Both the position numbers and the translations under genes were made by a program. Shown one piece after another: positions 2,132 to 35,090 of a stretch of 64,000 nt of DNA. This DNA is from Aquidulcibacter paucihalophilus (GTDB lineage Bacteria > Pseudomonadota > Alphaproteobacteria > Caulobacterales > Caulobacteraceae), in assembly GCA_030285985.1 (NCBI GenBank), contig CP127384.1, positions 2,344,501 to 2,408,500 of the forward strand, given 5' to 3'. Positions within the stretch are counted from its first letter, which is position 1. The number at the start of each line of letters is the position of its first letter. The notes beneath the pieces are model-generated. The model ran no database searches. It worked only from the letters and a program-made list of their open reading frames with translations, and was not told the origin of the DNA.

Positions 2132-2956
2132 GGGGCGATTCTCCTGAAATCGGCGACGCCGCTCCAACCGAGCGACGGGCGCATCACTCCCGAGGGCTCA
2201 GCCCTGGGGAAACGCGTCGTGAATAGTTAGCGCCAACGAACCAACTCCGCTCAACGTATACATCTACTTATGTCTTGAATATTTCACGCAATGTCGCGAA
2301 ATTGGCACGACAACAGTCATACTATTGCCCGACAACTGCACTCTACTTGTAAATTGACGCAACAATTGATGCGGTTCGGTCGCGAGCCTGCACTGTTTCT
2401 GTCACAACCGATGCGGCAATGGCGGGCCGACTTGCGGCAGCGTACCCAGGAGCAGACGAGACCTGAAAGAGATGAGTCGCTCGATCGCCTCGCGCTCGCG
2501 CGCAGCTTTCCGGGCAATCAGGCCCCGCCGGCGCCCTTAGCGCCCGGAAGCCGCGAGAGACGCTATACGCGCCGAAGTATCTGTCCGGGTCACCGAACTG
2601 TTCGGCGAGTCCGCCAAAGTCGGACTGGCGGAGACCGATTGTCAGACGACTGCCGCCATCCTCAAGGCTTCACAAGGCCTCCATCTTATGGCACTCAAAG
2701 TGCCGCTAAAAGGTGGAGACAGTTCTGGCGCGCGGGGCAACACTCGCCCGAAAGGATCACACGGTTCTGCTGTCCCGCCCGTTCCACGGGTTCGCGGTTC
2801 CGGTCACCGGAGCGCCAGGCCTGAACTTCCCGGTTCGTCCCAAGGTGGCGGCTGCGCGACCAGGCATGGCGGCCAAGGGCTGCGGGCCAGGCCTGGGCCG
2901 GCTCCGGGTCTGGTGATCTGCCGGCGAATTCACAGACATATGGATTGAGGACGACG
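2132..2956. other. Long intergenic region between divergent TonB receptor and dehalogenase
   Basis: About 825 bases with no convincing gene. The left part (about 2230-2360) is AT-richer than its surroundings and probably holds the receptor promoter. One frame around 2560-2690 reads protein-like on the plus strand (RAEVSVRVTELFGESAKVGL) but follows a stop, lacks a start and ribosome site, and may be a decayed gene remnant. The operator-like palindrome at 2686-2708 lies near the right end. Confidence 0.5.
2686..2708 (+). promoter_or_regulatory. Cluster operator site 1
   Basis: Palindrome TTATGGCA-N7-TGCCGCTA, one of 11 copies of a 23-bp element with consensus TATTGGCA-N7-TGCCAATA. It lies about 250 bases before the first dehalogenase gene. 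Identity as a repressor site is inferred from repetition and position. Confidence 0.65.
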
Positions 2957-3856
2957 ATGGAATTTCTTCGCACCCCCGATGAGCGTTTCGCCAATCTGCC
3001 GGGCTACGCATTCACACCCCGCTACGACAGCGTCGAGGCCACGGACGGCTCGATGCTGCGGATCCACTATCTCGACGAGGGCCCCGCGCAGGGGCCGGTG
3101 GTGCTTCTGCTGCATGGAGAGCCGACCTGGTCGTATCTGTACCGGTCCATGATCGGTCCGTTGGCGGATGCCGGATTTCGCGTCCTCGCGCCCGACCTGA
3201 TCGGCTTCGGCCGGTCCGACAAGCCGGTCGCGCGCGAAGCCTATTCCTATGCCGCCAATCTGGATTGGCTGGAGCAGTGGTTCCTCAAGCGAGACCTCGC
3301 CGACGTCACGCTGTTCTGCCAGGACTGGGGCGGTCTCCTGGGTCTCAGACTGGTCGCGGCTCACCCCGACCGGTTCGCACGCGTACTCGCCTCCAATACC
3401 GCTCTTCCCGATGGCTCGGACCTGGGCGATGGTTTCCGGCAATGGCGCGACTTCAGTCAGAGCCGGCCGGACATGGAGGTCGGCAAGGTGGTGGCGCGGG
3501 GGGTCAATCGCCGCCTGACCCCTGCCGAGGTATCGGCCTATGACGCCCCCTTTCCCGACGTCACCTACAAGGCCGCCGTCCTGACGTTCCCGACACTTGT
3601 TCCCGTTGGTCCCGATGACCGCGAGGCAGCTGAGAACCGGCAAGCCTGGTCTGTGCTGGAACAGTTCCAGAAACCCTTCCTGACCGCGTTCGGCGACCGT
3701 GACCCCGTCCTTGGGCATCTGGACTCCGTTCTTCAGAAACGCATTCCCGGTGCGCAGAGTCGGCCTCACATCCGCCTGGAGTCAGCCGGGCATTTCAGCC
3801 AGGAGGATGAGGCGGCGTTCTTCGTCCATGCCCTGTTGAAGCTGATGGACAACTGA
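2957..3856 (+). CDS. Haloalkane dehalogenase-type alpha/beta hydrolase (first copy)
   Basis: Predicted to hydrolyse a carbon-halogen bond to an alcohol and halide by an Asp nucleophile; cytoplasmic, 299 residues, the usual length for the family. The start is ATG 2957 after a GAGG ribosome site; an upstream in-frame TTG is less likely. Visible motifs are HGEPTW (53-58), the nucleophile elbow FCQDWGG with Asp123 and the halide-binding Trp124, Asp249 as catalytic acid in GDRDPVLG, and His279 in SAGHF. This matches haloalkane dehalogenase subfamily I (DhlA-like). A second copy of exactly the same length, with all catalytic residues at the same positions, lies at 5654. An epoxide hydrolase or other hydrolase role is not excluded, but the Asp-Trp pair favours dehalogenase. 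Confidence 0.85.
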   Translation: MEFLRTPDERFANLPGYAFTPRYDSVEATDGSMLRIHYLDEGPAQGPVVLLLHGEPTWSYLYRSMIGPLADAGFRVLAPDLIGFGRSDKPVAREAYSYAANLDWLEQWFLKRDLADVTLFCQDWGGLLGLRLVAAHPDRFARVLASNTALPDGSDLGDGFRQWRDFSQSRPDMEVGKVVARGVNRRLTPAEVSAYDAPFPDVTYKAAVLTFPTLVPVGPDDREAAENRQAWSVLEQFQKPFLTAFGDRDPVLGHLDSVLQKRIPGAQSRPHIRLESAGHFSQEDEAAFFVHALLKLMDN

Positions 3857-3974
3857 CAGGCGCCGCGGGGGAAGCTAGTGCGCCCATCGCGTTGACGATT
3901 CCGCCCGAAGCGCCGCGAGCGGCATGGTTTCGAGGCGTGTCTGAAAGGCTTTGAGCTTGTTGTCGGCAGTCGTC

Positions 3975-4190
3975 ATCAGGCTCTCTCAAATTGCCGCACG
4001 ATCAGAGGGCAAATCTGATGGTCCTGCACCGCAGGGCCTGATCGCGGACCTCGCCCCCCCCGCTGCGTCATCCGACTCTCGATGTCGTGAAAACCATGGC
4101 TGACGCAAAAGCAGAGCCGGATGGCGTAGCGGATGAGGTCCGCCGGCAACTGGTCGCCGTTGAACGAGAACGGCTTCACGAAATCGCTTG
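3975..4190 (-). pseudogene. IS6-family transposase fragment, frameshifted
   Basis: On the minus strand one frame reads SDFVKPFSFNGDQLPADLIR, followed by AIRLCF and HDIESRMTQRG. This resembles the N-terminus of IS6-type transposases, in which a FPPDVIRHAVWLY-like stretch precedes a FRDVEE..AERG helix-turn-helix segment. The match continues in a different frame (EVRDQALRCRTIRFAL, then SCGNLRE). A run of eight C on the plus strand (near 4053-4061) marks the frameshift. Only about 70 residues remain; the DDE catalytic part and the terminal repeats are missing, so this is a dead remnant and a sign of past rearrangement beside the dehalogenase gene. The assignment is from pattern similarity only. 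Confidence 0.55.
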
Positions 4191-4273
4191 TTCGTCCAAG
4201 GCTTACAGCCGAACGGCCAGAGATCGCCTGCCGTTCGGCTGACACACCTCTGCGCGACAACTTGTCACTGACA

Positions 4274-4296
4274 TAACGGCACTCTTTGTGCCACAT
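4274..4296 (+). promoter_or_regulatory. Cluster operator site 2
   Basis: TAACGGCA-N7-TGCCACAT with a perfect GGCAC/GTGCC core, about 118 bases upstream of the gene at 4414. Same spacing as the other copies. Confidence 0.65.
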
Positions 4297-4413
4297 TTCT
4301 CGCCAGACGGGTGCCCGAGATCGGCGCGGCCGGCGACAGTCCGCGTGAGCCCAGGTTTTTGATCAAAACCAGACGTACCGCAGGAAACCCCGGAGCGATT
4401 CAGAAGGACTTGC

Positions 4414-5511: not shown

Positions 5512-5618
5512 GCCAAGCGGGTGGGCGAGGGTGCCAGGTCACGAAAGACCCCCTTCCCTGCCCGACCTCAACCTGCAGCCTCACAGACCGCCATCCGCGA
5601 GATTGACGCAACAGATTA

Positions 5619-5641
5619 TATTGGCATCCTGCGTGCAATAT
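5619..5641 (+). promoter_or_regulatory. Cluster operator site 3
   Basis: TATTGGCA-N7-TGCAATAT, ending just before the ribosome site of the second dehalogenase. A TATATT hexamer (5617-5622) overlaps its left end and could be the -10 element, which would place bound protein directly on the promoter. Role inferred. Confidence 0.7.
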
Positions 5642-5653
5642 CTGGAGATGACC

Positions 5654-6553
5654 ATGCGGATTCTGAGAACGCCGGATTCCTGTTTCGAGGGTCTCGAAGG
5701 CTACGATTTCGCGCCCCACTACACAGAAATCGTCGACGCGGACGGCACGGCCATCCGCATCCACCACGTCGACGAGGGCCCAAGGGACGGACCGCCGGTC
5801 CTGCTGATGCACGGCAATCCGACCTGGGCCTATCTTTACCGCAAGATGATCCCGATCCTGGCCGCGGCCGGTTGCCGGGTCATGGCCGTCGACCTGGTCG
5901 GCTGCGGTCGGTCCGACAAGCCGAGCGAAAAGGACGACTACACCCTTGCCCGGCACTATGACTGGATCGGCCGCTGGCTGGCGGCGCTGGATCTGAAGGG
6001 GCTGACCCTCTTCTGTCAGGACTGGGGGGGAACGATCGGCCTCGCCCAGGTCGCCAACACCCCCGAGCGCTTCGACCGGGTCATCGCCTGCAACACCGGC
6101 GTGCCGGCGGGCGAAGGCGGCAATGAGATGCTGCGAAACTGGCTGGCGATGATGGCGGTCCTGCCGGAGTTTCCGTTCGACGCCGTCATGCAGGGCGGCA
6201 TGACGGTTCCGCTCACACCCGCCATGATGGCCGCCTGGAAGGCCCCCTTCCCCGAGCCCGCCTACCAGGCCGGCATCGTCGCCTTCCCGCAACTGATCGC
6301 CATCTTCGAGGACAATCCCGGGGTGCCATTGAACCGGGAAATCCGTGAGAAGCTGAAGCGCTTCGACAAGCCGTTCCTGACCGTCTGGGGCGGAAGGGAC
6401 ATGGTGACCCCCGGCGGCGACCGCCGCCTTCAGCGTGAGATCCCCGGAACGACGGGGCAGGCGCACGTTCACCTGCCCGAAGCCGGCCATTTCCTGCAGG
6501 AGGACGCCCCCGAGGAGGCGGCGCGGGCGATACTCTCCTTCATGGGGCGCTGA
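5654..6553 (+). CDS. Haloalkane dehalogenase-type alpha/beta hydrolase (second copy)
   Basis: 299 residues, predicted hydrolytic dehalogenase. The start is ATG 5654 with GGAG six bases upstream, the same arrangement as the first copy; the longer open frame reaching back into the preceding gene is not used. Motifs are HGNPTW (53-58), FCQDWGG with nucleophile Asp123 and Trp124, Asp249 in GGRDMV, and His279 in EAGHF. All catalytic positions are identical in number to those of the copy at 2957, while the cap-domain sequence (about 135-220) differs strongly. This suggests an old duplication with divergent substrate range. HGNPTW rather than HGEPTW is common in haloalkane dehalogenases. Confidence 0.86.
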   Translation: MRILRTPDSCFEGLEGYDFAPHYTEIVDADGTAIRIHHVDEGPRDGPPVLLMHGNPTWAYLYRKMIPILAAAGCRVMAVDLVGCGRSDKPSEKDDYTLARHYDWIGRWLAALDLKGLTLFCQDWGGTIGLAQVANTPERFDRVIACNTGVPAGEGGNEMLRNWLAMMAVLPEFPFDAVMQGGMTVPLTPAMMAAWKAPFPEPAYQAGIVAFPQLIAIFEDNPGVPLNREIREKLKRFDKPFLTVWGGRDMVTPGGDRRLQREIPGTTGQAHVHLPEAGHFLQEDAPEEAARAILSFMGR

Positions 6554-6574
6554 CCGGGAACGGAAGTCCCGCTG

Positions 6575-7048: not shown

Positions 7049-7064
7049 GAGGGTTCCTCGGTTG

Positions 7065-7087
7065 TTTCGTCACACATGATGCCATAA
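7065..7087 (-). promoter_or_regulatory. Cluster operator site 4
   Basis: On the minus strand TTATGGCA-N7-TGACGAAA. It lies midway between the divergent starts at 7048 and 7125. The left half is perfect, the right half is degraded. Confidence 0.6.
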
Positions 7088-8210: not shown

Positions 8211-8222
8211 GGCCCTGCCTGT

Positions 8223-9072: not shown

Positions 9073-9095
9073 TTATGGCAGAGTTAGTGCCAATA
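9073..9095 (+). promoter_or_regulatory. Cluster operator site 5
   Basis: TTATGGCA-N7-TGCCAATA, one of the two best copies, between divergent starts at 9051 and 9133. On the minus strand it overlaps CTATATATTGGCA, the same 13 bases found at 35063-35075. Confidence 0.75.
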
Positions 9096-10756: not shown

Positions 10757-10779
10757 ATAATGCACCATGAGTGTCGATA
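10757..10779 (+). promoter_or_regulatory. Cluster operator site 6
   Basis: ATAATGCA-N7-TGTCGATA, a weaker copy with preserved spacing and AT flanks, 113 bases upstream of the membrane protein start at 10644 and downstream of the esterase stop. Confidence 0.5.
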
Positions 10780-11882: not shown

Positions 11883-12524
11883 TCAGCGACTGGCGATACC
11901 GTCCAGCAGCATGCGCCTGACGGCAGAGTTCATCCGTTTGAGAAGTTCCTGATCACCCGCGTTGATGGTCATCAGGATCGTGCTGAAGATCATGCCCACC
12001 AGCAGATGGGCCGTGGCTTCCTTGTCCAGGTCGCTGCGCAGGAAGCCCTGCTGGATGCCGTTTTCGAAATAGGCATCGACCTGCCTGGCGCACCAGTCGA
12101 AGAAGTCGGTGATCCGCCGGGTCATTTCGGGGTCGATAGAGGTCGCCTCCAGCAGCAGGATCCGGAACAGGCCCGGCGTCTCATGGAGGATCTTGCTCAG
12201 TGAGACGCCCAGCCGTGCCAGCTGGCCCTCATAGTCTTGCAGCGTTTTGCTGGCCGTGGGCGCATTGGCCTCGGCCATGGCCAGCCTGATCTTCTCGCAA
12301 ACGCTATCGATAACGTGCTCGAGGATATCGCGCTTGTTCTCGAAGTATCTGTAAAACGTCCCGTGTCCGATGCCGAGACGTTTTGCGATGTGAGATATAC
12401 TGGTCTGGTGATAGCCGCGCTCAGAAAACCCTATGAAGGCAGCATCGATTATTTCTTGCCGTAACTGCAAGCGATGGCGTTCCGCCCGACTCACGGGCGC
12501 AATCACTGATGCGTTATTATTCAC
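11883..12524 (-). CDS. TetR-family transcriptional regulator (first)
   Basis: 213 residues. N-terminal helix-turn-helix of TetR type (TSISHIAKRLGIGHGTFYRY, about 42-61) followed by NKRDILEHVI, then a helical ligand-binding domain. The start is GTG 12524 with a weak ribosome site; a second GTG at 12506 is possible. It is divergent from the monooxygenase at 12695, and an AATGT-N13-ACATT palindrome lies between them, suggesting self-control and control of the monooxygenase. This palindrome differs from the element shared across the rest of the cluster, so this TetR probably serves the local BVMO/esterase pair. Confidence 0.88.
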   Translation of the reverse strand: MNNNASVIAPVSRAERHRLQLRQEIIDAAFIGFSERGYHQTSISHIAKRLGIGHGTFYRYFENKRDILEHVIDSVCEKIRLAMAEANAPTASKTLQDYEGQLARLGVSLSKILHETPGLFRILLLEATSIDPEMTRRITDFFDWCARQVDAYFENGIQQGFLRSDLDKEATAHLLVGMIFSTILMTINAGDQELLKRMNSAVRRMLLDGIASR

Positions 12525-22005: not shown

Positions 22006-22028
22006 TATTGGCATTCAGGCTGCCATAA
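22006..22028 (+). promoter_or_regulatory. Cluster operator site 7
   Basis: TATTGGCA-N7-TGCCATAA, one of the best copies, between divergent starts at 21971 and 22076. It would control both the six-gene sulfatase operon and the rightward GST pair. Confidence 0.75.
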
Positions 22029-23137: not shown

Positions 23138-23149
23138 CGAGGTACAGCC

Positions 23150-24313
23150 ATGACGCAACCCTATCTTCTCTACGGCATGCCGGTATCCATGTTTACCGGC
23201 AAGGCCCGGGCCCACCTGCGCAAACGCGGCGTTCCGTTCCAGGAACGGCTGGTCAATGACCCGCGATTTGGCGGCACCATCGCGCCGGCACTCGGCCGGT
23301 TCATGATCCCGGTCCTCGAGACGCCCGACGGCACCATCATCCAGGATACGGCCGATATTCTCGATCACGTCGAACAGGCCTTTCCGGCGGCTGTCCCGAT
23401 CTATCCGACCGGACCCCGACAGTCGGTCATCGCCCGCATTTTCGAACTGTTCGGTGATGAAGGCATGATCCGGACCGGCATGCACTATCGCTGGAGCTTT
23501 CCCGAACAGAACCACGCCTTTATCCAGGCCGGGTTCGCCGCCGGGATCGCGCCCTCTGCCGAGCCGTCGCAGGTCCCGATGATCGCCGAAGCAGCGATGG
23601 CGAAAATGGGGGGCTACCTGCCCATCCTGGGTGTCACGGCCGAGACCATCCCCGCCATCGAACAGGCCTATGAGATCCTGCTGGCCGCTCTGAACGAGCA
23701 TTTCCGCCGGTCGCCCTACCTGCTGGGCGGCGTGCCCAGCATCGGCGATTTCGGCCTGCTGTCGTCCTTCTATGCCCATCTGGGCCGTGACCCCTACCCG
23801 GCCGATCAGATGCGGCGGAAGGCCTATTTCGTCTTGCGCTGGGTCGAGCGGATGAATGCGGCCGATGCCGACATGCCGGAGTTCGCCGATCTGGATCCGG
23901 CCTATGCCGCGGACGACAGCCTGGCCGAGACCCTGGGTCCGGTCTGCGCGGCCGTGGCCGGGATCTACGGTGCCGAACTGACCGCCCAGGTCGAGGCGCT
24001 GGACCGCTGGCTGGCCGACCATCCAGACCTCGCGGCCGGTGAGCTCCTGCAGTCAGAGGACCGGAGCCGCCGTCCGAAGGGGCAAGTGACCTTCGACCTG
24101 ATGGGGACGCCGGTCACGACCACCCTGAGGGCCTTCAGTGTCTTCAAACTGCAGTCGGTGACCGACGCGTTTGAGCGGCTGGAACCGGCCGGGCGCGAGT
24201 CCGTGCGGGCCTATCTCGCGCCGCTGGGACTGGCCCACTGGCTGGAACTCAAGGCGCGCCGACGCATTGAGCGTGTTGGGAACCGCGAGGTGTGGGCCGG
24301 TCTCCCGAGCTGA
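23150..24313 (+). CDS. Long GST-fold protein with C-terminal extension (third)
   Basis: 387 residues. The N-domain VSMFTGKARAHLRKRGVPF is related to that of the 22076 product, followed by FMIPVLETPDG and DTADILDHVEQ. The C-domain has GGVPSIGDFGLLSSF. The extension includes VTFDLMGTPV, TLRAFSVFKLQSVTDAFERL and AGRESVRAYLAPLG, a divergent version of the module in the two other long GSTs. Start ATG 23150, ribosome site GAGG. It ends 20 bases before the convergent SCP2 gene. Confidence 0.84.
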   Translation: MTQPYLLYGMPVSMFTGKARAHLRKRGVPFQERLVNDPRFGGTIAPALGRFMIPVLETPDGTIIQDTADILDHVEQAFPAAVPIYPTGPRQSVIARIFELFGDEGMIRTGMHYRWSFPEQNHAFIQAGFAAGIAPSAEPSQVPMIAEAAMAKMGGYLPILGVTAETIPAIEQAYEILLAALNEHFRRSPYLLGGVPSIGDFGLLSSFYAHLGRDPYPADQMRRKAYFVLRWVERMNAADADMPEFADLDPAYAADDSLAETLGPVCAAVAGIYGAELTAQVEALDRWLADHPDLAAGELLQSEDRSRRPKGQVTFDLMGTPVTTTLRAFSVFKLQSVTDAFERLEPAGRESVRAYLAPLGLAHWLELKARRRIERVGNREVWAGLPS

Positions 24314-24333: not shown

Positions 24334-24636
24334 CTAGTTCAGGATATTGCCCAGCTGCATGGCCAGGCCCATGTCGCCTTCGATCTTGATCTTGCCCGAC
24401 ATGAAGCCAGCCGTCGGGTTCAGGCGGCCGGCAGCCATTTCGAGGAAGTCGTCTTTCGAGATCTTGACCGTGCAGTCGGCCGCGCTGTCTTCATTGTCGA
24501 CCACCGCCTCGTCGCCCCGGGAGTCGATCCGGATGGCTCCATCGTCGCCGAAATGGAACTTCACCGTCTTGCCCTTGATGCCACCGTTGGCCGCGACGCG
24601 GCCCCGGATCTCCGAGGTGATTTCGTCTAGCGTCAT
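24334..24636 (-). CDS. SCP2 sterol-binding domain protein
   Basis: 100 residues, a stand-alone SCP2 domain: KFHFGDDGAIRI, ADCTVKISKDDFLEMAAGRLNP, FMSGKIKIEGDMGLAMQLGNIL. SCP2 domains bind hydrophobic ligands such as fatty acyl-CoAs or sterols in the cytoplasm. Start ATG 24636 has a GGAGGA ribosome site; the longer frame to 24789 is rejected because it would run into the divergent TetR gene. Its promoter region carries operator site 8. A carrier for the hydrophobic substrate or acyl-CoA is a reasonable inference. Confidence 0.9.
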   Translation of the reverse strand: MTLDEITSEIRGRVAANGGIKGKTVKFHFGDDGAIRIDSRGDEAVVDNEDSAADCTVKISKDDFLEMAAGRLNPTAGFMSGKIKIEGDMGLAMQLGNILN

Positions 24637-24705: not shown

Positions 24706-24728
24706 TTTTGGCATTCCGGATGTCAATA
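24706..24728 (+). promoter_or_regulatory. Cluster operator site 8 at the TetR gene itself
   Basis: TTTTGGCA-N7-TGTCAATA, ending just upstream of the ribosome site (GGAG 24732-24735) of the TetR gene at 24743. Position suggests autoregulation by that TetR and control of SCP2. Confidence 0.7.
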
Positions 24729-24742: not shown

Positions 24743-25369
24743 TTGCTGGAAAGCGCGGACGAAGAGTCTGTTGTCGACGGTCGGCGCATCCGCAGTCAGC
24801 GCAGCCGCTCTGCGGTCGCCCGGGCACTGCTCGACCTGGTTCGCGAGACACGTCAGATGCCGACGATGGACGCCGTCGCCGACCGGGCCAATGTGTCCCG
24901 GCGCTCCGTCTTCCGGCATTTCGCCGACACCAATGAGCTGATCATCGCGGCGACCCAATTGCAGCGCGAAGAGGTCTTCGCCCGGTTTCATTCACGCGAC
25001 ATCAGCGGGCTGCCCGAACCCGAGCTGATTACTGCCGTGGCGCAGAGACTGGGCCGGCTGTGGGAATATGTCAGCCCGGTGCGGGATGTCGCCCGATCCA
25101 TGCGCGCCATGAATCCTGTGATCGACCGCATGCTGCGCGAGGACGAAGGCACCCACCGCAACTACCTGAACACCGTCTTCTCGACGTCTCTGAACCAGGC
25201 GGCCGAAGCCGACCGGGAACTGTTCCTGCGCTCCATGGTCCTGGCCTCATCCTGGCCGACATGGATCGGAATGCGCCGCGACCAGCAATTGACCGTAGTC
25301 GAGGCCAGACGGGTGATGGAGCACACGCTTCGGTCGCTGCTGCTGGCCGCCCGAACGCCGGCCGGCTGA
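24743..25369 (+). CDS. TetR-family regulator (second), candidate master repressor of the cluster
   Basis: 208 residues, start TTG 24743 with GGAG seven bases upstream. Helix-turn-helix PTMDAVADRANVSRRSVFRH at about 40-59, then DTNELIIAATQ; the C-terminal helical domain is likely ligand-binding. The 23-bp palindrome repeated through the cluster overlaps its own promoter, the usual autoregulatory setup for TetR proteins, which makes it the best candidate to bind all copies. An inducer would be a pathway substrate or acyl-CoA; this is inferred. The first TetR (11883) has a different palindrome. Confidence 0.88.
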   Translation: MLESADEESVVDGRRIRSQRSRSAVARALLDLVRETRQMPTMDAVADRANVSRRSVFRHFADTNELIIAATQLQREEVFARFHSRDISGLPEPELITAVAQRLGRLWEYVSPVRDVARSMRAMNPVIDRMLREDEGTHRNYLNTVFSTSLNQAAEADRELFLRSMVLASSWPTWIGMRRDQQLTVVEARRVMEHTLRSLLLAARTPAG

Positions 25370-25444: not shown

Positions 25445-26530
25445 CTAGAACAGGCGTTTGCGCTGCATGCTGTCGTCACCGCGCGGCAGGCTGAACAGCA
25501 TGCCGTCCTCGCCGACGATGATCGGGCCGTCAAAATGCTTGCGCGCATCGCCCAGGAAGGCCGCGTACCCATAGTCGAGGGGCTGGGGTGGCACGAGGTG
25601 GTTCAGAACCAGCGTGTCCACGCCCGCGGCCTTCGCCGCATCGGCTGCCTGTTCGGGGGTGGCGTGATAGTCGACGATGTCACGCATGACCTGGGCCAGA
25701 TTGGCCTGCCCCTTGTCATCCAGTCGCTTTTCGATGGTCGAAAGCAGGGCCGGCTGCAGGGCATCGTGAACGAGGATGTCGGCACCGGCCGCCATGGCGT
25801 TCAGGTGGGCCGAGACCGCCGTGTCGCCGCTGAAGACCACGCTGCGCCCGGCATAGTCGAAGCGATAGCCTACGGCCGTATGGACCGGATTATGATTGAC
25901 GGTGAACGCCGTCACCACGAGGCCATCGGCATTATAGACCACGAGCCCGCCGGCGGCCGCTGCACCCTGGATACTGAAGGCGACGGGGGCGGCCCCCTGT
26001 CCGGAGGGCGGCGCAATGGCAGCGCTGTGGTGCGCGACCCGATAGCCCGAGTCGAGCACATAGGCGGCATTGAACCCGGCGGCCACACTCTCGACGCCCT
26101 CCGGTCCGTAGAGAGGCATTGGCCGGGTGCGGGTCCCGCTGACCCAGCTCTGCAGCAGGACCGGCGGCAGACCGTCGATGTGGTCGGAATGGAAATGGGT
26201 CAGGAAGATCGCTTCGATCCGCGAGGCCGGAATCCCCATTCTCGCCAGGCTGCGGGCGGCCCCCTCCCCGCTGTCGATCACGAAGACCTTGCCACCGACA
26301 ATCACGGCGCTGCATGGACCCGCCCGGGTCGGGTCGGGGAAGGGTGACCCGGTTCCGCAAAGCGCGACATTGAGACCGTCCGCCATGTCAGCGACACTGT
26401 CGCGACCGACCTGGGTGTTCGCAATACGCCCCAGCACGCCGGCCCCGATGGGTCGCTGGAACACGATCAGCACTCCGGCCGCCAGAACGACGAGGATGAG
26501 ACCGGCGAGTGCAACGCGGCGAAGGTTCAT
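25445..26530 (-). CDS. Membrane-anchored metallo-beta-lactamase-fold hydrolase
   Basis: 361 residues. An N-terminal hydrophobic segment (about 6-24) acts as signal anchor, so the enzyme probably faces the periplasm. The metal site motif is THFHSDHIDG (His112, His114, Asp116, His117), with later ligands in VNHNPVHT, FSGDT and LNHLVPP, as in the RNase Z/arylsulfatase-like branch of the MBL fold. Two zinc ions and hydrolysis of an ester, sulfate ester or phosphodiester are possible. It lacks the domain plan of SdsA-type alkylsulfatases. The ATG overlaps the stop of the upstream gene (ATGA), placing it third in the TonB receptor operon. Confidence 0.87.
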   Translation of the reverse strand: MNLRRVALAGLILVVLAAGVLIVFQRPIGAGVLGRIANTQVGRDSVADMADGLNVALCGTGSPFPDPTRAGPCSAVIVGGKVFVIDSGEGAARSLARMGIPASRIEAIFLTHFHSDHIDGLPPVLLQSWVSGTRTRPMPLYGPEGVESVAAGFNAAYVLDSGYRVAHHSAAIAPPSGQGAAPVAFSIQGAAAAGGLVVYNADGLVVTAFTVNHNPVHTAVGYRFDYAGRSVVFSGDTAVSAHLNAMAAGADILVHDALQPALLSTIEKRLDDKGQANLAQVMRDIVDYHATPEQAADAAKAAGVDTLVLNHLVPPQPLDYGYAAFLGDARKHFDGPIIVGEDGMLFSLPRGDDSMQRKRLF

Positions 26531-27876
26531 GTTTTTGTTCCGGTTCCGAAGTCTGAGGCGGTCGCCTTGGGCCCGCCGAGGGTTTCAATAATGGCCTGCT
26601 CGACCAGCCAGAGCCGGTCCTGGCCCCAGGTGGCCAGGTCTCCGAAACGGAACGACGGCACGCCCCAGAGCTGATCAGCGAACATGGAGCGGCGATTGTC
26701 CTCGGCGACCTCGCGCCAGCTCTCATCCGCCATCCAGACGAGGGCCTGTTGCCAGTCGAGTCCGGCCCGTTCGACCAGATGACGCAGGCCACTGTCGGAG
26801 CCGGCATCGATCGCCTCGGCGAACACACCGCGCAGGAAGGAGCATGCGAAAGCCATGCCGGATCCCGTTGCGATGGCACCGTTCAGGATGGCCAGACCGC
26901 GTTCCACCGGCCGTCCCACCGGATCGCAGACAGAGCCAAAGGGAAACCCGAGATGGTCGGCCTCCCGTTTGCAGTCGCGCAGGATATAGGTCCGCTTGGC
27001 CGCCGGGACCGGAAGGCCGCGCATGACCATGGGCAGGACAAATCGCAGGCGCAGTTCCACCCCGTAGTGGCTGACAAGGGCCCGGACCCGTTCCATCGCC
27101 AGATAGGTGTAGGGACTTCGGAACGAGAGAAACATCTCCAGGGCCGGTGTACGCGTGTCTGCGGCTCGAGCGGTTTCGAGAAACCTCAGTTGCGGGCGCG
27201 TGGCCAGGGCGTGGAACGCCGGGCCGCCGTCGCCGCATCCAAGGGCCCCGAGCCGCATCTCCAGATCGCCGAGACGATCAACGCCCCAATACCACTCACC
27301 GGCATGATGCAGGGTCGCGCCGAGATAGTGACCAAGCCGGTTCCGCAGGCGGTCGCCAGCCTCAAGCGCCGCCGCGACGGTCGCCGGGGTCGCTGAACCG
27401 AACGCCGCCTCAGCAGCGTCGAGGGAGTCTCCCGCGCCGAGGGCACGCGCGACAACCGGGGCCGCGACCGCAAAACGCCCGGTGTCGATCGCGGACTTCA
27501 GAATGGACTGGGCCCGTTCCACCTCCGGCGCGGACGGAATGGCCCGGTCACAATAGTCCAGACCATAGGCGGGGGCGATCAGCGCCGCGTCCCGCCGGGC
27601 ATAGACCGTCAGCTTCTGCCGCTCCGGTGCCGCCCAGCCGGGCGGCGGGGGCACCAGATGTGGCGTGAGTACGACCCCGTATTGCTCGACCAGGCCGGCA
27701 AGCCGGCCGGCCATCAGGGCAGAATAGGGGTCGTCCACCTGATGGAAATACAGGACTTCATGCGGTTTTCCGGCCCGAACACGAGCATCCTCGAACCGGC
27801 GACGCTGCGTATCGCGTCGCCGGTTCGAGGTGATCGCCCGGCTGACCATGGGCCCGATCAGTGCCTTGATCCCCAT
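26527..27876 (-). CDS. Tandem DsbA/HCCA-isomerase-like thioredoxin-fold protein
   Basis: 449 residues built of two related thioredoxin-fold units. The N-terminal unit (about 35-215) has YFHQVDDPYSALMAGRLAGL. The C-terminal unit (about 245-445) has LEMFLSFRSPYTYLAMERV and WGVPSFRFGD, the segments typical of 2-hydroxychromene-2-carboxylate isomerase and kappa-class GST. These enzymes use glutathione. The SPYTY form in the second unit keeps the Ser-Pro active-site turn; the first unit has DPYSA, so it may be catalytically altered. No signal peptide. It lies 23 bases after the TonB receptor gene. Domain duplication is seen; reaction is not known. Confidence 0.8.
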   Translation of the reverse strand: MGIKALIGPMVSRAITSNRRRDTQRRRFEDARVRAGKPHEVLYFHQVDDPYSALMAGRLAGLVEQYGVVLTPHLVPPPPGWAAPERQKLTVYARRDAALIAPAYGLDYCDRAIPSAPEVERAQSILKSAIDTGRFAVAAPVVARALGAGDSLDAAEAAFGSATPATVAAALEAGDRLRNRLGHYLGATLHHAGEWYWGVDRLGDLEMRLGALGCGDGGPAFHALATRPQLRFLETARAADTRTPALEMFLSFRSPYTYLAMERVRALVSHYGVELRLRFVLPMVMRGLPVPAAKRTYILRDCKREADHLGFPFGSVCDPVGRPVERGLAILNGAIATGSGMAFACSFLRGVFAEAIDAGSDSGLRHLVERAGLDWQQALVWMADESWREVAEDNRRSMFADQLWGVPSFRFGDLATWGQDRLWLVEQAIIETLGGPKATASDFGTGTKT

Positions 27877-27899
27877 GGCCGAGCCCTGGCGTCCCCCGA

Positions 27900-30353
27900 T
27901 CAGAAGTTACGACGAAGGGTGATGCCCATCGTACGCGGAGCCTCCATGAAGGCGCTCTGGCTGCCCGTCTGGAAGACCGTGTCGAAAACAATGTTGGCGA
28001 CCCGTTCGTCCGTCAGGTTGCGAACCCAGATCTCCGCACCCCAGGCCTCGTCAAGCGTGCCAATGCCGATGCTGGCATTGAGCATGACATAGCCGTCCTG
28101 GAAGGAGAGCGGGTCGAGGTCCTGGGCGGTGGCGTATTCCGACCGGTACAGATAGTTGAGGTTGGCCCGCAGACCGAGGGAACCGGTCAACGGCGTCTCA
28201 TAGGTGATGCCGCCGGAGATCAGGACCTCGGAGACGAAGTTCGGCGTCCTGCCGCTCAGGTCCTGAACGTTCTGACCGGCAAGGACCTGGGCTGCGGTAG
28301 CCTGGGCGTTGGCAAAGTCGGTGTACTGGACGTCCTGCAGGGTGCCGCCGCCATCGATGATGATGTTGTCGGTCAGCCGGATGCGGTAGTCCCACTCCAG
28401 TCCCTTGCTCTCCAGTCCGCCGGCGTTGGTAATCCGGAAGCTGCTGCCGTCAAAAGCATTGGTCTGGTAATCTTCCAGCGCCTGGAAGAACAGGTTGGCG
28501 TTGAGCTGGCCCCGACCGTCCCAGAAGCGGATCTTGGTCCCCACTTCAAAGGCATCGACGACCTCGGGGTTGAAGATCACCCTGTTGGGGTCAGCCACCG
28601 GGTTGCCCGGCGTGGTCTGCGCGGCCGTACGGTTGAGGTTGAAACCGCCCGACTTGTAACCCCGGGCATAGCGGGCAAACAGGTTGACCTCATCGGAGAG
28701 CTCATAGGCCACGCTGACCGTCCCGGAGAGATCGTCATCCTTGATTTCTGCAGTGAACGGATTGACCGCCGGGTAGAGCTGCAGACTCCGGAGCGCCGCA
28801 AACGGAGCCAGGGGACCAACGAACTGGATCTGGGAGAGCGTATCGAATGACTGGATCCGATAGTCGGCATTCTTCTCTTCACGCGAGTAGCGAAGCCCAC
28901 CCGTGATCGCGAGCCGATCCGTCACATTGAAGGTCGCCTGGCCGAACAGGGCCGCGCTGCGGCTTTCGTAGTCATAGTCGTCGTTGACGGCGACGCCGGG
29001 GGCCAGGAACGTGCCCACAGGGCGTCCGGTCACCTGCTCCAGACGGGTCAGGATCGGCACGGTCACCCCGGGCGCGACAGGCACGCGCGGCGTGATCGCC
29101 TCGATATAGGCGCGGAGCTGGTTGCCGTAGCGGAGCTCCTGGTCGGCGAAGATGTCCTGGTTGAACAGGAAACCGCCGATCAGCCACTCGAGCCGGGCAT
29201 CCGGATCCGCCGAGGCCAGACGGACCTCGAGGGACCCCTCCGTGATGTCCTGACCGGTGGTCTGGGACAGCATGTTGAGGTTGGTGAAGTCGGCATCGAC
29301 CGTGGGCATGGTCTCAAAGGTGCGACGCGAGGCGATGACGGTCAGGTCGGTCGCCCCCAGGTTCCAGTCCAGCTGGGCCGAAACACCCTGGTCGACCGAG
29401 GAGTCGTCGAGGGGCTGGGTGGCCGGATTCACAGCCACATCATAGATGCTGTTGTCGACAAAGCGGCCGGCGAAACCGCCATGGGACCCTGCCGTCCCTG
29501 TCCGCAGCACGCCCCCCAGCGCAGTGAGCGCCGCCGAGGTCGGGCCATAGAAGACGGGTATGGCGGCACAGCAGACCTCCTCGGTCTCGGACCGGTCGGC
29601 GATCAGACGCAGCGTCGCATCGGGCGAGATATCCCAGAGCAGTTGCCCCTTAACCGACCAGCGCGACCGGTCATTGTAGGTGCCGCCCAGGCGGAAATCG
29701 TCGACGTAGCCGTCACGCTCCTGCGAGGTCGCGGTCAGGCGTCCCGCCACGGAGTCGCCCAGCAGGGGTCCGGTGACAGTCGCCATGAACTGGCGATGGC
29801 CATAGTCGCCCGCAGACGCCGTGAACTGGCCGCCGGGGACAAACTCGGGCTGTCTTGTCTGCACGGCGATGACGCCGCCAGACGTATTCCGACCAAACAG
29901 CGTGCCCTGCGGTCCGCGCAGCACCTCGATCTGGCTGACGTCGGCGAGGTCGCCGAGGGCCGCCCCGGGACGGCCGCGATAGACGCCATCCAGGAACACG
30001 CCAACGGACTGCTCAAGCCCGGTGTTCTGGCCGGCAGTGCCGACACCGCGGATGGTGAAGACCGTCTGGGTCGATCCGGTGCTGGAGTTGACCGCAAGGG
30101 TCGGGGCCACAATCTGCAGATCGCGCACATCGCGGACCTGGGCGGCCTGAAGCTGCTCGCTTGAATAGGCGGTCACGGCCACCGGAACATCGAACAGGCT
30201 CTCGGACCGCTTGGTCGCCTGGACGATGATCTCGTCCAGCCTTGCGGGCTCCGAGGCACCGCTCTGCGGGTCCTGCGCCATGGCAACATTGGAAGCTGCC
30301 ATGGCCGCTGTAAGCGACAACAGCGATACGCCGAGTTTCCTGGTGGTCTTCAT
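27900..30353 (-). CDS. TonB-dependent receptor of the catabolic cluster
   Basis: 817 residues, start ATG 30353 with GGGGAGG upstream. Signal peptide (MKTTRKLGVSLLSLTAAMAA...AMA-QD), TonB box DEIIVQATKR, plug domain (QIEVLRGPQGTLFGRNTSGG), then a beta-barrel with DEVNLFARYARGYKSGGFNL, ending in the canonical terminal aromatic (TLRRNF). The sequence type is common among sphingomonad/caulobacter receptors for organic molecules. It heads an operon with the tandem thioredoxin-fold protein and the metallohydrolase and is preceded by operator site 9, so it is the likely uptake route for the cluster substrate. Confidence 0.95.
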   Translation of the reverse strand: MKTTRKLGVSLLSLTAAMAASNVAMAQDPQSGASEPARLDEIIVQATKRSESLFDVPVAVTAYSSEQLQAAQVRDVRDLQIVAPTLAVNSSTGSTQTVFTIRGVGTAGQNTGLEQSVGVFLDGVYRGRPGAALGDLADVSQIEVLRGPQGTLFGRNTSGGVIAVQTRQPEFVPGGQFTASAGDYGHRQFMATVTGPLLGDSVAGRLTATSQERDGYVDDFRLGGTYNDRSRWSVKGQLLWDISPDATLRLIADRSETEEVCCAAIPVFYGPTSAALTALGGVLRTGTAGSHGGFAGRFVDNSIYDVAVNPATQPLDDSSVDQGVSAQLDWNLGATDLTVIASRRTFETMPTVDADFTNLNMLSQTTGQDITEGSLEVRLASADPDARLEWLIGGFLFNQDIFADQELRYGNQLRAYIEAITPRVPVAPGVTVPILTRLEQVTGRPVGTFLAPGVAVNDDYDYESRSAALFGQATFNVTDRLAITGGLRYSREEKNADYRIQSFDTLSQIQFVGPLAPFAALRSLQLYPAVNPFTAEIKDDDLSGTVSVAYELSDEVNLFARYARGYKSGGFNLNRTAAQTTPGNPVADPNRVIFNPEVVDAFEVGTKIRFWDGRGQLNANLFFQALEDYQTNAFDGSSFRITNAGGLESKGLEWDYRIRLTDNIIIDGGGTLQDVQYTDFANAQATAAQVLAGQNVQDLSGRTPNFVSEVLISGGITYETPLTGSLGLRANLNYLYRSEYATAQDLDPLSFQDGYVMLNASIGIGTLDEAWGAEIWVRNLTDERVANIVFDTVFQTGSQSAFMEAPRTMGITLRRNF

Positions 30354-30441
30354 AACAATCCTCCCCTTGGCTGCCACGCTATTGAAAGCTGGAGCCTCCC
30401 CTCGTCCTGTCTCGTTTTTTACACGGCGGACCTGAGGGGTA

Positions 30442-30464
30442 CGTTAGCACCATAAGTGCCAAAA
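30442..30464 (+). promoter_or_regulatory. Cluster operator site 9
   Basis: CGTTAGCA-N7-TGCCAAAA, 89 bases upstream of the TonB receptor start and shared with the divergent membrane protein at 30600. Confidence 0.65.
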
Positions 30465-30599
30465 TAAAGTGGGCTTGCGACGATTAAGCTTTGCCGCAGA
30501 ATACCGGCTTGGTTAAGCGTTCCGGGCGATCGGCGGTCAGGAGGATCCTGACCATACCGGACGCAGTTCTGTCACCGACCATGCCAAGAGGGCCGCGTC

Positions 30600-30971: not shown

Positions 30972-30989
30972 CGCCGTCCTGCACCCTGT

Positions 30990-31006
30990 CCGGGGGAATG
31001 CCCCGG
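30990..31006. terminator. Short hairpin between convergent genes
   Basis: CCGGGG / CCCCGG stem with a 5-base loop in the 36-base gap between the genes ending at 30971 and 31008. Weak terminator candidate. Confidence 0.4.
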
Positions 31007-31007
31007 T

Positions 31008-32438
31008 TCAGGATTTGAGTGCGATGCCGGCAGCGAAGCGGAACACGGCACCATAGGGCGGCGCGATCAGCCGGCTCGAGTGCCACCGGCCCGCCTCGAA
31101 CACGCTGCGGGCATGGCTGAACTCCTCGAAGCCACGCTGTCCGTGATAGGCCCCCGAGCCACTCTCGCCGACGCCGCCGAATGGCAGGTGTTCATTGGAG
31201 AGATGGACCATGGTCGTGTTCACCGAGACCCCGCCCGAGAGGGTGCTGTCCAGCACCTGACGGACGACGGCACGGTCATCGCTGAACACATAGAGCGCCA
31301 GGGGCCGTTCCCCCGCGTTCACCCGGGCGCAGGCCGCGGCAATGGAGGCGCTGCTCACGATCGGCAGCACCGGTCCGAAAATCTCCTCACGCATGACGGC
31401 CAGGTCGGCGGGCGGATCAATCATGACGGTGGGAGCTATCCGCCGGCTACCGGCAAGGGACGCGGCGTCGTGGGGCGGCTGCAGGATCTGCACCCCCCTG
31501 TGTCGCGCCTCGTCGATCATCGCCGTCAATCGCGCATGGTGCCGGTCCGAGACGATGGCGGTGTAGTCGGGGTTGGAAGCGAATTCGGGATAGAAGACCC
31601 CCGCCTGCCGGATCACGGCCTGACCCAGGGCCTCGGCGCGGTGGCCCTCGACCAGCACATAGTCCGGCGCGACGCAGGTCTGGCCCGCGTTCAGGAACCG
31701 GCCCCAGGCCAGGGGATGGGCCACGCGGTCCAGAGGGATTGAGGCATCAACGATGACCGGGGACTTGCCGCCGAGTTCCAGCGTGACCGGCGTCAGGTTC
31801 CGGGCGGCGGCCTGACCCACGGAACGGCCGATCCGCGTTGAGCCGGTATAGAACAGATGGTCGAACCGCTCGCTGCAAAAGACCTCGGCGACATCGGCCC
31901 CACCGGTCACCACCGCAACCTGGTCAGCGGGGAAGCGCTCGGACAGCAGACGAGCCATCAGGTCACTGGTCCGGGGGGTCAGTTCGGACGGCTTGATCAG
32001 GGCCCGGCAGCCGGCCGCCAGGGCAGCAATCAACGGAACGAGGCTCAACTGGATCGGATAGTTCCAGGGCGCGACAATCCCGACGACGCCCTTGGGCTCA
32101 TACCGGACAAGGGATCGCCCCGGTGCCGCCATTGAAGGCGTCGGCACCGTGCGAACCTTCATCCATCGCGACAGGTCCTTGCGGGCATGCCGCGCCGCCT
32201 GGGCCGTGACGACAATCTCCAGCAGCCGCGTCTCGTTGCGCGATCGCCCGCCGAAATCGGCATCGATCGCCTCGGCAATGGCGTCCTCATTGTCGAGCAC
32301 TAGGGCTTCCACGATGCCCAGGTCGCGCCGCCGGTCGGCCAGCGAACGCCGGGGATCCTGTGCGAAAGCGGCCTGCTGGGCCGCGATAAGGGCCCGGATC
32401 CTGTCCGATGCAGGTGGGGCTGTCAGGGTCCCGGTCAT
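31008..32438 (-). CDS. NAD(P)-dependent aldehyde dehydrogenase
   Basis: 476 residues, ALDH superfamily, closest in pattern to the coniferyl-aldehyde/fatty-aldehyde dehydrogenase group (short form, hydrophobic C-terminus). Catalytic Glu221 in TLELGGKSP and Cys255 in NAGQTCVAPDY; PWNYP cofactor segment at about 124-128. Oxidises an aldehyde to the acid. The ATG overlaps the stop of the GMC oxidoreductase (ATGA). Together the two would take a primary alcohol to an acid, which the acyl-CoA synthetase at 15184 could activate. Confidence 0.92.
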   Translation of the reverse strand: MTGTLTAPPASDRIRALIAAQQAAFAQDPRRSLADRRRDLGIVEALVLDNEDAIAEAIDADFGGRSRNETRLLEIVVTAQAARHARKDLSRWMKVRTVPTPSMAAPGRSLVRYEPKGVVGIVAPWNYPIQLSLVPLIAALAAGCRALIKPSELTPRTSDLMARLLSERFPADQVAVVTGGADVAEVFCSERFDHLFYTGSTRIGRSVGQAAARNLTPVTLELGGKSPVIVDASIPLDRVAHPLAWGRFLNAGQTCVAPDYVLVEGHRAEALGQAVIRQAGVFYPEFASNPDYTAIVSDRHHARLTAMIDEARHRGVQILQPPHDAASLAGSRRIAPTVMIDPPADLAVMREEIFGPVLPIVSSASIAAACARVNAGERPLALYVFSDDRAVVRQVLDSTLSGGVSVNTTMVHLSNEHLPFGGVGESGSGAYHGQRGFEEFSHARSVFEAGRWHSSRLIAPPYGAVFRFAAGIALKS

Positions 32439-34039
32439 TGGGCTGTCTCCAGGATCATAGCGGCGCCAAGGGTGGCGATCATGATGGTCGGGGCATTGGT
32501 GTTGCCGCCGACCAGCCGGGGCATGACGGACGCGTCGACGACCCGGAGCCCCTCAACGCCCCGTACCCTCAGTTGCGGGTCGACCACAGAGAGCTCGCCC
32601 TGCCCCATCATGCAGGTGCCGACCGGATGATAAAGGGTCTCGGCCCGTGCCCGGACGTCATCCATCAGCGCGGAACGGCTGGTCTTGTCCGGACCCGGCA
32701 GCAACTCGGCGCGGCGGTCAAATTCAAACGCTGCCGAACCCAGCAAGGTCCGGACGATCTCCAGCCCATCGGTCAGGACCTCGAGGTCATGCGGGGCCGT
32801 CAGATAGGCCGGGTCGATCGCCGGCGGCACGGCCGGATCGTCGCTGACGATGCGGATCCGGCCGCGGCTCTCCGGATAGAGCACACAGGCATGGAGCGTC
32901 GCCCCGTGCCCGAGCGGCAGTTCGCGTCCGTGCGGCGCGGCCAGACCCGGTGTGAAAACCAGCTGGATGTCCGGCAGGTCGCCGGCCCGGGATGAACGGA
33001 CAAAGGCACCGCCCTGGATCGGATTGGTCGACAGGGGGCCCGGCCGCCCGGCCAGCCAGGCGGCGACACCGCCCACCAGGGGCGGCAATCCCCGCAAGGA
33101 CAGGCCGATTGAGGCCGCGCTACGGGTCGAGATCTGGCCGATAATGTCGATATGGTCCTGCAGGTTGCGGCCGACGCCCGGCAGGTCGACTTCGGGCGTG
33201 ACGCCTGCGGCGCGAAGATCCGCGGCATCGCCAACGCCAGACAGCTGCAGCAGTTGCGGCGAGTTCACGGCACCGCCGCAAAGGATCACCTCACGCCGGG
33301 CGGTGAACGGCTCGTGCTGGCCGGTGCCCCCCAACTCCACGCCCCGGGCGACGCCACCTTCGATCAGGATCCGACGGGCGAGCGCGCCGGTCCTGACGGT
33401 CAGATTCGGTCGCGACAGGGCCGGCTTCAGGAAGGCATCGGCCGCACTCCAGCGGTGCAGGCCACGCTGTGTGACCTGATAGGGACCGAATCCCAGCTGG
33501 GCGGCCCCGTTGAAATCGGGGTTTCGCGGATACTGGAGCAGCCCCCCGGCCTCGAAAAAGGCCTCTGTCAGCCGGTTCAGCGGGGCAATGTCCTGCACCG
33601 TCAACGGTCCATCGGCACCGTGATACGCGTCTGCTCCGCGCGTCTGGCCCTCGACCTCCCGGAACGCCGGCAAGGCCCTGTCCCAGCCCCAGCCCTCGCA
33701 TCCGAAAACGTCGCGCCATTCGTCGTAGTTTCCGGGCGCTCCCCGGATGTAGTGCATCGCATTGATCGCACTCGAACCGCCCAGGGTCCTGCCCCTGGGC
33801 CAGTAAAGCCGCCGGTCGTTCAGCCCGGCCTGGGCTTCGGTCTCATAGTGCCAGTTGTAGGCCCGGGACTGAATGGCGAGGCCCATCAGCATCGGCGTGC
33901 GGATCAGGGCACTGTTATCCGGCCCGCCCGCCTCCAGCAGCAGAACGGTATGGTCCGCATCGCGCGAAAGTCGCTCGGCCAGCACACAGCCGGCCGAGCC
34001 GGCACCGACAATGATGAAGTCGTAGATCGCCTCGCGCAT
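32435..34039 (-). CDS. GMC-family FAD alcohol oxidoreductase
   Basis: 534 residues, choline dehydrogenase/long-chain alcohol dehydrogenase type. FAD-binding GAGSAG at 12-17, GMC signature WPRGRTLGGSSAINAM, a second signature GGAVNSPQLLQLSGVG, catalytic His471 in YHPVGTCMMG and the partner Asn in GGNTNAPTIM. Oxidises a primary alcohol to an aldehyde with FAD. Start ATG 34039, two bases after the MaoC stop. It forms an operon MaoC - GMC - ALDH. Confidence 0.92.
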   Translation of the reverse strand: MREAIYDFIIVGAGSAGCVLAERLSRDADHTVLLLEAGGPDNSALIRTPMLMGLAIQSRAYNWHYETEAQAGLNDRRLYWPRGRTLGGSSAINAMHYIRGAPGNYDEWRDVFGCEGWGWDRALPAFREVEGQTRGADAYHGADGPLTVQDIAPLNRLTEAFFEAGGLLQYPRNPDFNGAAQLGFGPYQVTQRGLHRWSAADAFLKPALSRPNLTVRTGALARRILIEGGVARGVELGGTGQHEPFTARREVILCGGAVNSPQLLQLSGVGDAADLRAAGVTPEVDLPGVGRNLQDHIDIIGQISTRSAASIGLSLRGLPPLVGGVAAWLAGRPGPLSTNPIQGGAFVRSSRAGDLPDIQLVFTPGLAAPHGRELPLGHGATLHACVLYPESRGRIRIVSDDPAVPPAIDPAYLTAPHDLEVLTDGLEIVRTLLGSAAFEFDRRAELLPGPDKTSRSALMDDVRARAETLYHPVGTCMMGQGELSVVDPQLRVRGVEGLRVVDASVMPRLVGGNTNAPTIMIATLGAAMILETAQ

Positions 34040-34041
34040 CG

Positions 34042-34500
34042 TCAGGCCGTCAGTTGCAGGATCAGGGACTCAGCCGTCAGGGCCGGCTTGTCCGTGCCCC
34101 GGATCTCGACCGTAATCTCATTGCGCAGCAGCCAGCCGGATCCCCGCGGGGTGGCGCCCAGGAACTTGTGCCGGGCCCGGATCTCCGAGCCCGAGCGAAC
34201 GGGCGCGATCAGCCGGACCTTTTCGAACCCGTAGTTCACCGCCATCACCAGACCCTCTACGAGCAGATAGCCGGGGGGCAGCATGGCAATGGCCATGGAC
34301 AGGGTCAGCATGCCGTGGGCGATGGTGCCGCCAAACGGGGTCTGTGCCGCCGCCACCGGATCGACATGGATGAACTGGTGATCGCCGGTCGCCGCCGCGA
34401 ACCGGTCGATCCGCTCCTGATCGACCAGAACCCAGTCCGAAAAACCGAGATCGTCCCCCACGCGGCCCACGAGACTGTCGGCAGAGATGATGTGTGGCAT
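34042..34500 (-). CDS. MaoC-like (R)-enoyl-CoA hydratase
   Basis: 152 residues, single hot-dog domain with the hydratase motif TGDHQFIHVD (Asp40, His45 catalytic) and PFGGTIAHGMLTLS. Adds water to a 2-enoyl-CoA. Start placed at ATG 34500, giving the normal N-terminus; the longer frame to 34545 would start inside the degenerate operator. The ribosome site is weak. It heads the MaoC-GMC-ALDH operon and suggests beta-oxidation-like processing of a CoA-bound intermediate. Confidence 0.88.
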   Translation of the reverse strand: MPHIISADSLVGRVGDDLGFSDWVLVDQERIDRFAAATGDHQFIHVDPVAAAQTPFGGTIAHGMLTLSMAIAMLPPGYLLVEGLVMAVNYGFEKVRLIAPVRSGSEIRARHKFLGATPRGSGWLLRNEITVEIRGTDKPALTAESLILQLTA

Positions 34501-34536
34501 GGGCCTGGGTCTCGCTCGACGGCACGCCCGCCATCT

Positions 34537-34559
34537 GAGTGGCACTCAAGGCGCAGACC
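34537..34559 (+). promoter_or_regulatory. Degenerate cluster operator site 10
   Basis: GAGTGGCA-N7-CGCAGACC: left half good, right half poor, but at the expected place upstream of the MaoC operon. It also contains the 11-base perfect palindrome GAGTGGCACTC. Confidence 0.35.
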
Positions 34560-34733
34560 GTGCTTGGGGGTTGAATGACTAAGCCGCCCTGAAAGCCGGA
34601 CGGGGGATGCGGTGGATCGCCTCTTTGGTGCCCGGGACCTTTGCCAGCCCTGCCGGACACGGGAACGGACGGCGGGTTTCATTTCCCGCTCGAGGGCACC
34701 GCGCGACCGGCGTCATCGGGGCGGCTGATGTTG

Positions 34734-35021
34734 CTAGCGGAGCTGCAGTTCGGCGCGTGACAATTGCCCGTTGCGGTCGCTGTCCAGTTGCTGGAAGGCC
34801 CGGTCATAGACATTCCGGTCACGGACCATGACCGCCCGGGGGCGCCCGGCCGCGGCCCCGAGACTGATGAAGCGACGAAACTCGGCGGGACTGAGCGTGG
34901 CGGAGCGGTCGGCATCACTGGCGACGAAGTCCTCAGCCGGGGTTCCCGCCATGGCCGCGCCCGGAGCCAGGATCAGGCCTGCTAACAGAAAAAGGGTCGC
35001 CATCACGTGTCGCTCGCTCAT
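34734..35021 (-). CDS. Small secreted EF-hand calcium-binding protein
   Basis: 95 residues. Signal peptide MSERHVMATLFLLAGLIL...AMA, mature part with two canonical 12-residue EF-hand loops: Asp36-Glu47 (DADRSATLSPAE) and Asp80-Glu91 (DSDRNGQLSRAE). Expected in the periplasm, binding Ca2+. It is divergent from a sulfatase gene across operator site 11; class I sulfatases hold a divalent metal, usually Ca2+, so a calcium-supply or sensing role is possible but unproven. The ribosome site is weak. Confidence 0.82.
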   Translation of the reverse strand: MSERHVMATLFLLAGLILAPGAAMAGTPAEDFVASDADRSATLSPAEFRRFISLGAAAGRPRAVMVRDRNVYDRAFQQLDSDRNGQLSRAELQLR

Positions 35022-35067
35022 TTTGGCAGGTTCCTGAAGGTTCCGGGACTTTACAGGCCCTTCTATA

Positions 35068-35090
35068 TATTGGCATCCTCTATGACAATA
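35068..35090 (+). promoter_or_regulatory. Cluster operator site 11
   Basis: TATTGGCA-N7-TGACAATA between divergent starts at 35021 and 35132. It overlaps CTATATATTGGCA (35063-35075), identical to the reverse strand of site 5. Confidence 0.7.

Follow-up and report, generated by a model that had tools for sequence, protein, structure and literature searches.

TetR-type regulators of the KstR kind control cholesterol catabolism in actinobacteria, and those of the FadR/PsrA type control fatty-acid metabolism. In this work, we analyzed a 64,000-nucleotide stretch of the Aquidulcibacter paucihalophilus genome (contig CP127384.1, positions 2,344,501 to 2,408,500; hereafter the window, whose own numbering is used throughout), which contains a gene set of about 33 kb whose promoters mostly share one 23-bp inverted repeat of the approximate form TWWTGGCAYYCWGRRTGCCAWWA. 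Judging from the sequence, we put the probability at roughly 85% that these repeats serve as operators for a single TetR-family repressor of the locus itself, TetR_B, encoded at 24743..25369 on the plus strand.

Like the KstR regulons, the locus would combine one TetR protein with many similar operators and a large catabolic cluster, and the structural model of TetR_B matches KstR structures among others. In contrast, the best PDB match of TetR_B by sequence (E 4.6e-06) is another TetR protein, whereas KstR reaches only E 0.47; operator and genes also differ from those of KstR. With this sequence match to KstR and no NCBIfam match, TetR_B was not accepted as a KstR orthologue. The cluster has in common with FadR/PsrA-type systems a long-chain acyl-CoA ligase, and the fold search with TetR_B lists FadR and DesT; however, TetR_B belongs to no NCBIfam family, and sulfatases, GSTs and dehalogenase homologues are also present in the cluster. 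Algal-polysaccharide sulfatase clusters, i.e., carrageenan regulons, are similar in their S1 sulfatases, and in the PDB sulfatase 2 is most closely related to carrageenan sulfatases. Yet the annotated genes of our cluster include no glycoside hydrolase, and it contains an acyl-CoA ligase, a GMC oxidoreductase, an aldehyde dehydrogenase and GST and dehalogenase homologues. Among the papers listed in literature searches no title concerned this cluster, which does not prove its absence from print, and four longer strings of the motif had no occurrence among the matches listed in a literature string search, which settles nothing. We take the cluster for a genuine local regulon with a probable regulator, novel in its details but of a familiar kind.

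The initial annotation had described eleven copies of TATTGGCA-N7-TGCCAATA, the sixth and tenth of them weak. All eleven coordinates are real, but as a literal string with up to three mismatches the motif finds only four places in the window (9073, 22006, 24706 and 35068; chance mean 0.02), whereas a symmetric position weight matrix (PWM) recovers the nine strong sites from which it was built. These score 23.9–31.6 bits; the next place in the window, at 54954 within an open reading frame (ORF) of 4130 amino acids, has 15.85 bits. In leave-one-out scoring, the nine strong sites ranked 1 to 10 in the window. The two sites called weak are weak indeed: site 10757 (14.1 bits) came at rank 11 with 14.6 bits when left out, and site 34537 fell to rank 77 with 2.0 bits and can no longer be called a good site. 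Individual sites are imperfect palindromes, with 3 to 8 of 11 pairs matching, but the spacing is constant across the nine strong repeats, and the inner CA of each half is invariant in all 25 sites from the window and from the relatives G033, G122 and G141. Among 100 windows simulated with a first-order Markov model, the highest score was 21.5 bits, so that none attained 23.8 bits, and 29 places had at least 14 bits. From these simulations and the genome-wide restriction to the cluster, a chance origin of the repeats was dismissed. As the initial annotation had it, all strong sites of the window fall between 2.6 kb and 37.4 kb. The PWM scan also detected no site at the abh3, TetR_A and FMO promoters near 12.5 kb.

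In the 3.1-Mb genome, a degenerate version of the pattern with up to three mismatches occurs at 12 places, compared with 3 for the reversed control pattern. All eight places with at most two mismatches lie inside the cluster, as do two of the four with three mismatches (30442 and a possible weak site at 30567). The degenerate pattern was written from these very sites, which match it by construction, and the evidential weight therefore lies in its near-absence elsewhere in the genome and in the relatives, other genomes being the independent test. A 19-bp core with up to one mismatch gave seven places, five of them in the cluster (control, one). The sole exact match to this core (C1:2509822) lies outside the cluster within a 545-amino acid ORF and was dismissed at 8.1 bits. 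Another place, C1:639370 (16.2 bits), just precedes a 394-amino acid ORF and is identical in G141; it overlaps an apparent ribosome-binding site and was not counted.

Among 131 Brevundimonas genomes, places with at most one mismatch exist only in the window's own genome, G000 (4), and in G033 (4), G122 (3) and G141 (3); with two mismatches allowed, 22 of the 131 contain some place. At up to three mismatches, G033, G122, G013 and G141 have 11, 7, 3 and 10 places (reversed controls 0, 4, 0 and 3), of which 6, 4, 1 and 4, respectively, are the sites described here and the remainder lies elsewhere in these genomes. The sites of G033, G122 and G141 played no part in building the PWM. Despite a rearranged cluster, G033 has eight sites (17.3–33.5 bits) at orthologous promoters, namely those of abh2, DUF1330/DUF2855, SDR/reductase, a small gene together with MaoC, sulfatase 2, the TonB receptor, TetR_B/SCP2 and GSTb/GSTc. 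Four sites are kept in G122 (sulfatase 2, TonB, TetR_B and GSTb/GSTc), and G141 has four on three contigs. Alignments show the repeat preserved between diverged flanks. The corresponding stretch of G013 (C12 near 51900–54100, L038) is a decayed remnant from which most of the cluster is gone. What is left comprises TetR_B, SCP2, GSTa, a distant g2 and fragments of FGE2 and the ligase, with a single strong site (27.8 bits) just before TetR_B.

The regulator of the sites is, on these comparisons, most likely TetR_B. Its start lies 14 bp beyond the end of site 24706, so that an operator-like inverted repeat stands beside its own gene, an arrangement conserved in G013, G033 and G122. The protein has an N-terminal TetR helix-turn-helix (TetR_N, E 1.5e-06, 28.3 bits at a cut-off of 24), and its all-helical model (predicted local distance difference test score 89.9) has a TetR fold, with the transcriptional regulator 2np5 as best Foldseek match (E 6.3e-05). 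At E 1e-20, TetR_B matches in 7 of the 131 genomes, with identities of 92% in G013, 78% in G122 and G033, 51% in G146 and 45% in G139 and G023; at least 78% is found in four, the window's own included. A wider homologue search gathered 61 relatives with context. All five matches in the order (398 genomes) fall within this genus, the class (385 genomes) has five distant ones besides the window's own, and plasmids gave no match. A TetR_B clade (56–58%; P0031, P0033, P0038, P0043) and a GSTb clade (60–61%; P0092, P0093, P0088, P0085) have longest contigs of equal size (11031, 19664, 9650 and 213402), which suggests linkage of the two genes in other organisms.

The sites might instead bind the second TetR protein of the cluster, TetR_A (11883..12524, minus strand; TetR_N domain), or a regulator whose gene lies at another place in the genome, with TetR_B as a mere passenger. 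We consider this unlikely, although both TetR genes lie within the cluster. TetR_A is absent (E 1e-10) from G033, G122 and G013, all of which keep sites, and was rejected as their binder; its own promoter has no site, and the G013 remnant keeps TetR_B with its single site. TetR_A is thus probably not the regulator of these repeats. The proposal of the initial annotation that one TetR controls the whole cluster agrees with the comparative evidence as far as a single regulator is concerned. It did not say which of the two TetR proteins this would be; TetR_B accompanies the sites in three relatives. 'Whole cluster' is somewhat too wide, given the promoters without a site near 12.5 kb.

Some observations nevertheless weigh against TetR_B and in part favor such another regulator. 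In G141 the sites occur together with TetR_A (92%), whereas a search at E 1e-20 finds no TetR_B. This genome is a metagenome-assembled genome (MAG) of 270 contigs with 83% completeness, in which TonB matches at only 38%, i.e., the orthologue is lacking; hence the TetR_B segment is probably missing from the assembly. In G122, DUF2855 and the reductase have no site. Furthermore, G146, G139 and G023 encode the 45–51% relatives of TetR_B with no comparable site nearby, and yet the recognition helix is nearly the same (AGVSRRSVFRHY versus ANVSRRSVFRHF), so helix and operator are not simply coupled there. A search for an alternative operator near these relatives gave nothing convincing. Finally, two-mismatch places are scattered over G023 (8) and G139 (4; controls 0 and 2, respectively), with 12.7–22.9 bits. 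As these scores come near the weakest strong site of the window, score alone cannot separate signal from background in these genomes of lower G+C. The G+C content of their stretches is 61.5–63.5%, compared with 66–68% for G033, G122 and G013, from which a higher background of AT-rich ends follows.

With two further places from G146, 14 scattered places were followed up. The invariant CA/TG step is broken in nine of them, four lie inside ORFs of at least 192 amino acids, and for the ten whose flanks were compared, none of the neighboring ORFs matches a cluster protein at E 1e-8. We read them as background as regards the TetR_B regulon. For two of the G023 places (L078, L079), the surrounding DNA aligns with place-bearing G139 stretches (L085, L087), away from cluster genes; such palindrome-like places common to both genomes are possibly another regulatory element. 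The G023 place at 68521 (20.7 bits), which has a G139 counterpart, precedes a tRNA-like gene by eye and was not counted. In G023 (C9, 69–75 kb; L045) and G139 (C27, 2–6 kb; L062), the 45% TetR_B relative adjoins GMC and aldehyde dehydrogenase homologues (59–63%) without the motif, and G023 additionally has a 59% sulfatase 2 homologue beside it. We take these loci for a pared-down form of the pathway that may use a different operator.

If TetR_B is the repressor, a TetR_B dimer would sit on each repeat and block RNA polymerase. This fits the position of the sites, which lie 6–47 bp upstream of nine starts (abh2, DUF1330, DUF2855, SDR, reductase, GSTb, GSTc, TetR_B and sulfatase 2). By analogy with the family, TetR_B would also repress its own gene, and a ligand would release the protein, this being either the substrate itself or an intermediate derived from it, such as an acid or a CoA ester. 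Release might then jointly induce uptake, desulfation, oxidation, CoA activation and glutathione- or hydrolase-type steps. Some TetR proteins are activators, and TetR_B could act in this way or the sites could mix activation with repression. Two sites indeed stand at a considerable distance (117 and 248 bp) from the genes they precede, but the short distances at the nine starts are better suited to blocking, and we regard this option as improbable. Least credible is a reading of the repeats as sigma-54 promoters (consensus TGGCAC-N5-TTGCW), to which the equally spaced TGGCA and TGC shared with that consensus, the presence of both GG and GC in 10 of the 18 readings obtained from both strands of the nine sites, and a sigma-54 activator gene at 46529–47857 might point, and which we rejected because a T precedes TGC in none of the 18 readings, GG or GC is broken in eight, the repeat is symmetric with its AT-rich ends included, and a strict sigma-54 expression matches nowhere in the window.

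Of the six sites said to lie between divergent starts, five do so and the sixth was not confirmed. Site 7065..7087 (25.4 bits) separates DUF1330 (minus) from DUF2855 (plus), and site 9073..9095 (29.1 bits) an SDR gene (minus) from a medium-chain reductase gene (plus); both are conserved in G033 and G141. Site 22006..22028, the strongest at 31.6 bits, lies between GSTb (minus) and GSTc (plus) and is conserved in G033, G122 and G141. The probable autoregulation site, 24706..24728 (28.5 bits), stands between SCP2 (minus) and TetR_B (plus). Site 30442..30464 (23.9 bits), between the TonB receptor gene (minus) and a small ORF (plus), recurs in G033 and G122. The small ORF, at 30600, may have another, weak site before it at 30567–30589 (three mismatches, 13.4 bits), and the TCACC...ATG block there is partly conserved in the same two genomes. 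Upstream of single genes are site 5619..5641 (24.6 bits; 6 bp before abh2 at 5648; conserved in G033 and G141) and site 35068..35090 (30.0 bits), which precedes sulfatase 2 by 41 bp and recurs in G033 and G122. Distances to the SCP2, TonB, g2, small ORF and abh1 starts are larger (69–248 bp). Site 2686..2708 (24.8 bits) lies 248 bp before abh1, for which neither the G033 nor the G122 stretch yielded an orthologue, and site 4274..4296 (26.2 bits) lies 117 bp before g2 and has no counterpart at the g2 homologues of the G013 and G023 stretches; the evidence of conservation comes from the other sites. The weak site 10757..10779, 112 bp before a small gene (10644, minus), and 34537..34559, 36 bp before MaoC (34500, minus) and probably decayed, both align to the single G033 site 31131 (17.3 bits), which stands between the small gene and MaoC, the latter on its MaoC side. 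It seems that these paired promoters were separated by a rearrangement, after which one kept a weak site and the other a decayed one.

The genes of the cluster begin with two haloalkane dehalogenase homologues on the plus strand, abh1 (2957..3856; NCBIfam PRK00870, 432 bits) and abh2 (5648..6553; 373 bits; PDB haloalkane dehalogenases), both above the family cut-off of 265 bits. With QDWGG and GHF motifs, i.e., the Asp-Trp nucleophile and the His, they are predicted dehalogenases, which may act on other substrates. Between them, g2 (4414–5511) has no Pfam or NCBIfam match; its family is large and well represented in Brevundimonas, and among the entries listed those with a name are called hypothetical protein. 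A same-strand run at 14204..21971 (minus), read as an operon, encodes FGE1, the acyl-CoA ligase (above the NCBIfam cut-off for long-chain ligases), GSTa, FGE2, sulfatase 1 and GSTb. It is followed by GSTc and GSTd (22076..24313, plus; GST domains) and by the sterol carrier-like SCP2 protein (24334..24636, minus; Pfam SCP2). Two further minus-strand runs likewise read as operons contain an MBL hydrolase, a DSBA/HCCA-isomerase-like protein and the TonB receptor (25445..30353) and an aldehyde dehydrogenase, a GMC oxidoreductase and MaoC (31008..34500). S1-type sulfatase 2 is encoded at 35132..36787 (plus). Both sulfatases match Pfam Sulfatase and have the CxPxR motif of S1 sulfatases (CSPTR in sulfatase 1, CSPSR in sulfatase 2). 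In all, the cluster has two FGE-like sulfatase-maturation homologues and four GST-like proteins. Elsewhere in the window, the genes for an SDF dicarboxylate symporter, a histidine kinase with a Cache domain and a sigma-54 response regulator lie together (43136–47860), a set that resembles DctA/DctB/DctD. The 4130-amino acid ORF (47965–60357, minus) has no Pfam match at E 0.001.

The simplest reading of this gene content is a sulfated, lipid-like and possibly halogenated substrate. Chlorosulfolipids, which are chlorinated sulfated lipids, are described from a freshwater chrysophyte (PMC13413282). Two of the relatives are listed as pond MAGs. A search on bacterial degradation of chlorosulfolipids listed two papers, neither of them on that subject judging by title and abstract. 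We may speculate, at long odds, that the regulon is a dedicated chlorosulfolipid pathway in which TetR_B senses the lipid or its acid. The two sulfatases would then remove the sulfates, the GMC and aldehyde dehydrogenases would oxidize the freed alcohol, and the long-chain ligase would form the CoA ester, while chlorine might be stripped by the homologues of dehalogenases and GSTs. Whatever the compound, the putative operators indicate which genes act together, and the sulfatases, dehalogenase homologues, GSTs and lipid-type oxidation would form one inducible pathway. The divergent promoter at 22006 together with TetR_B would make a simple reporter for finding the inducer and hence the substrate.

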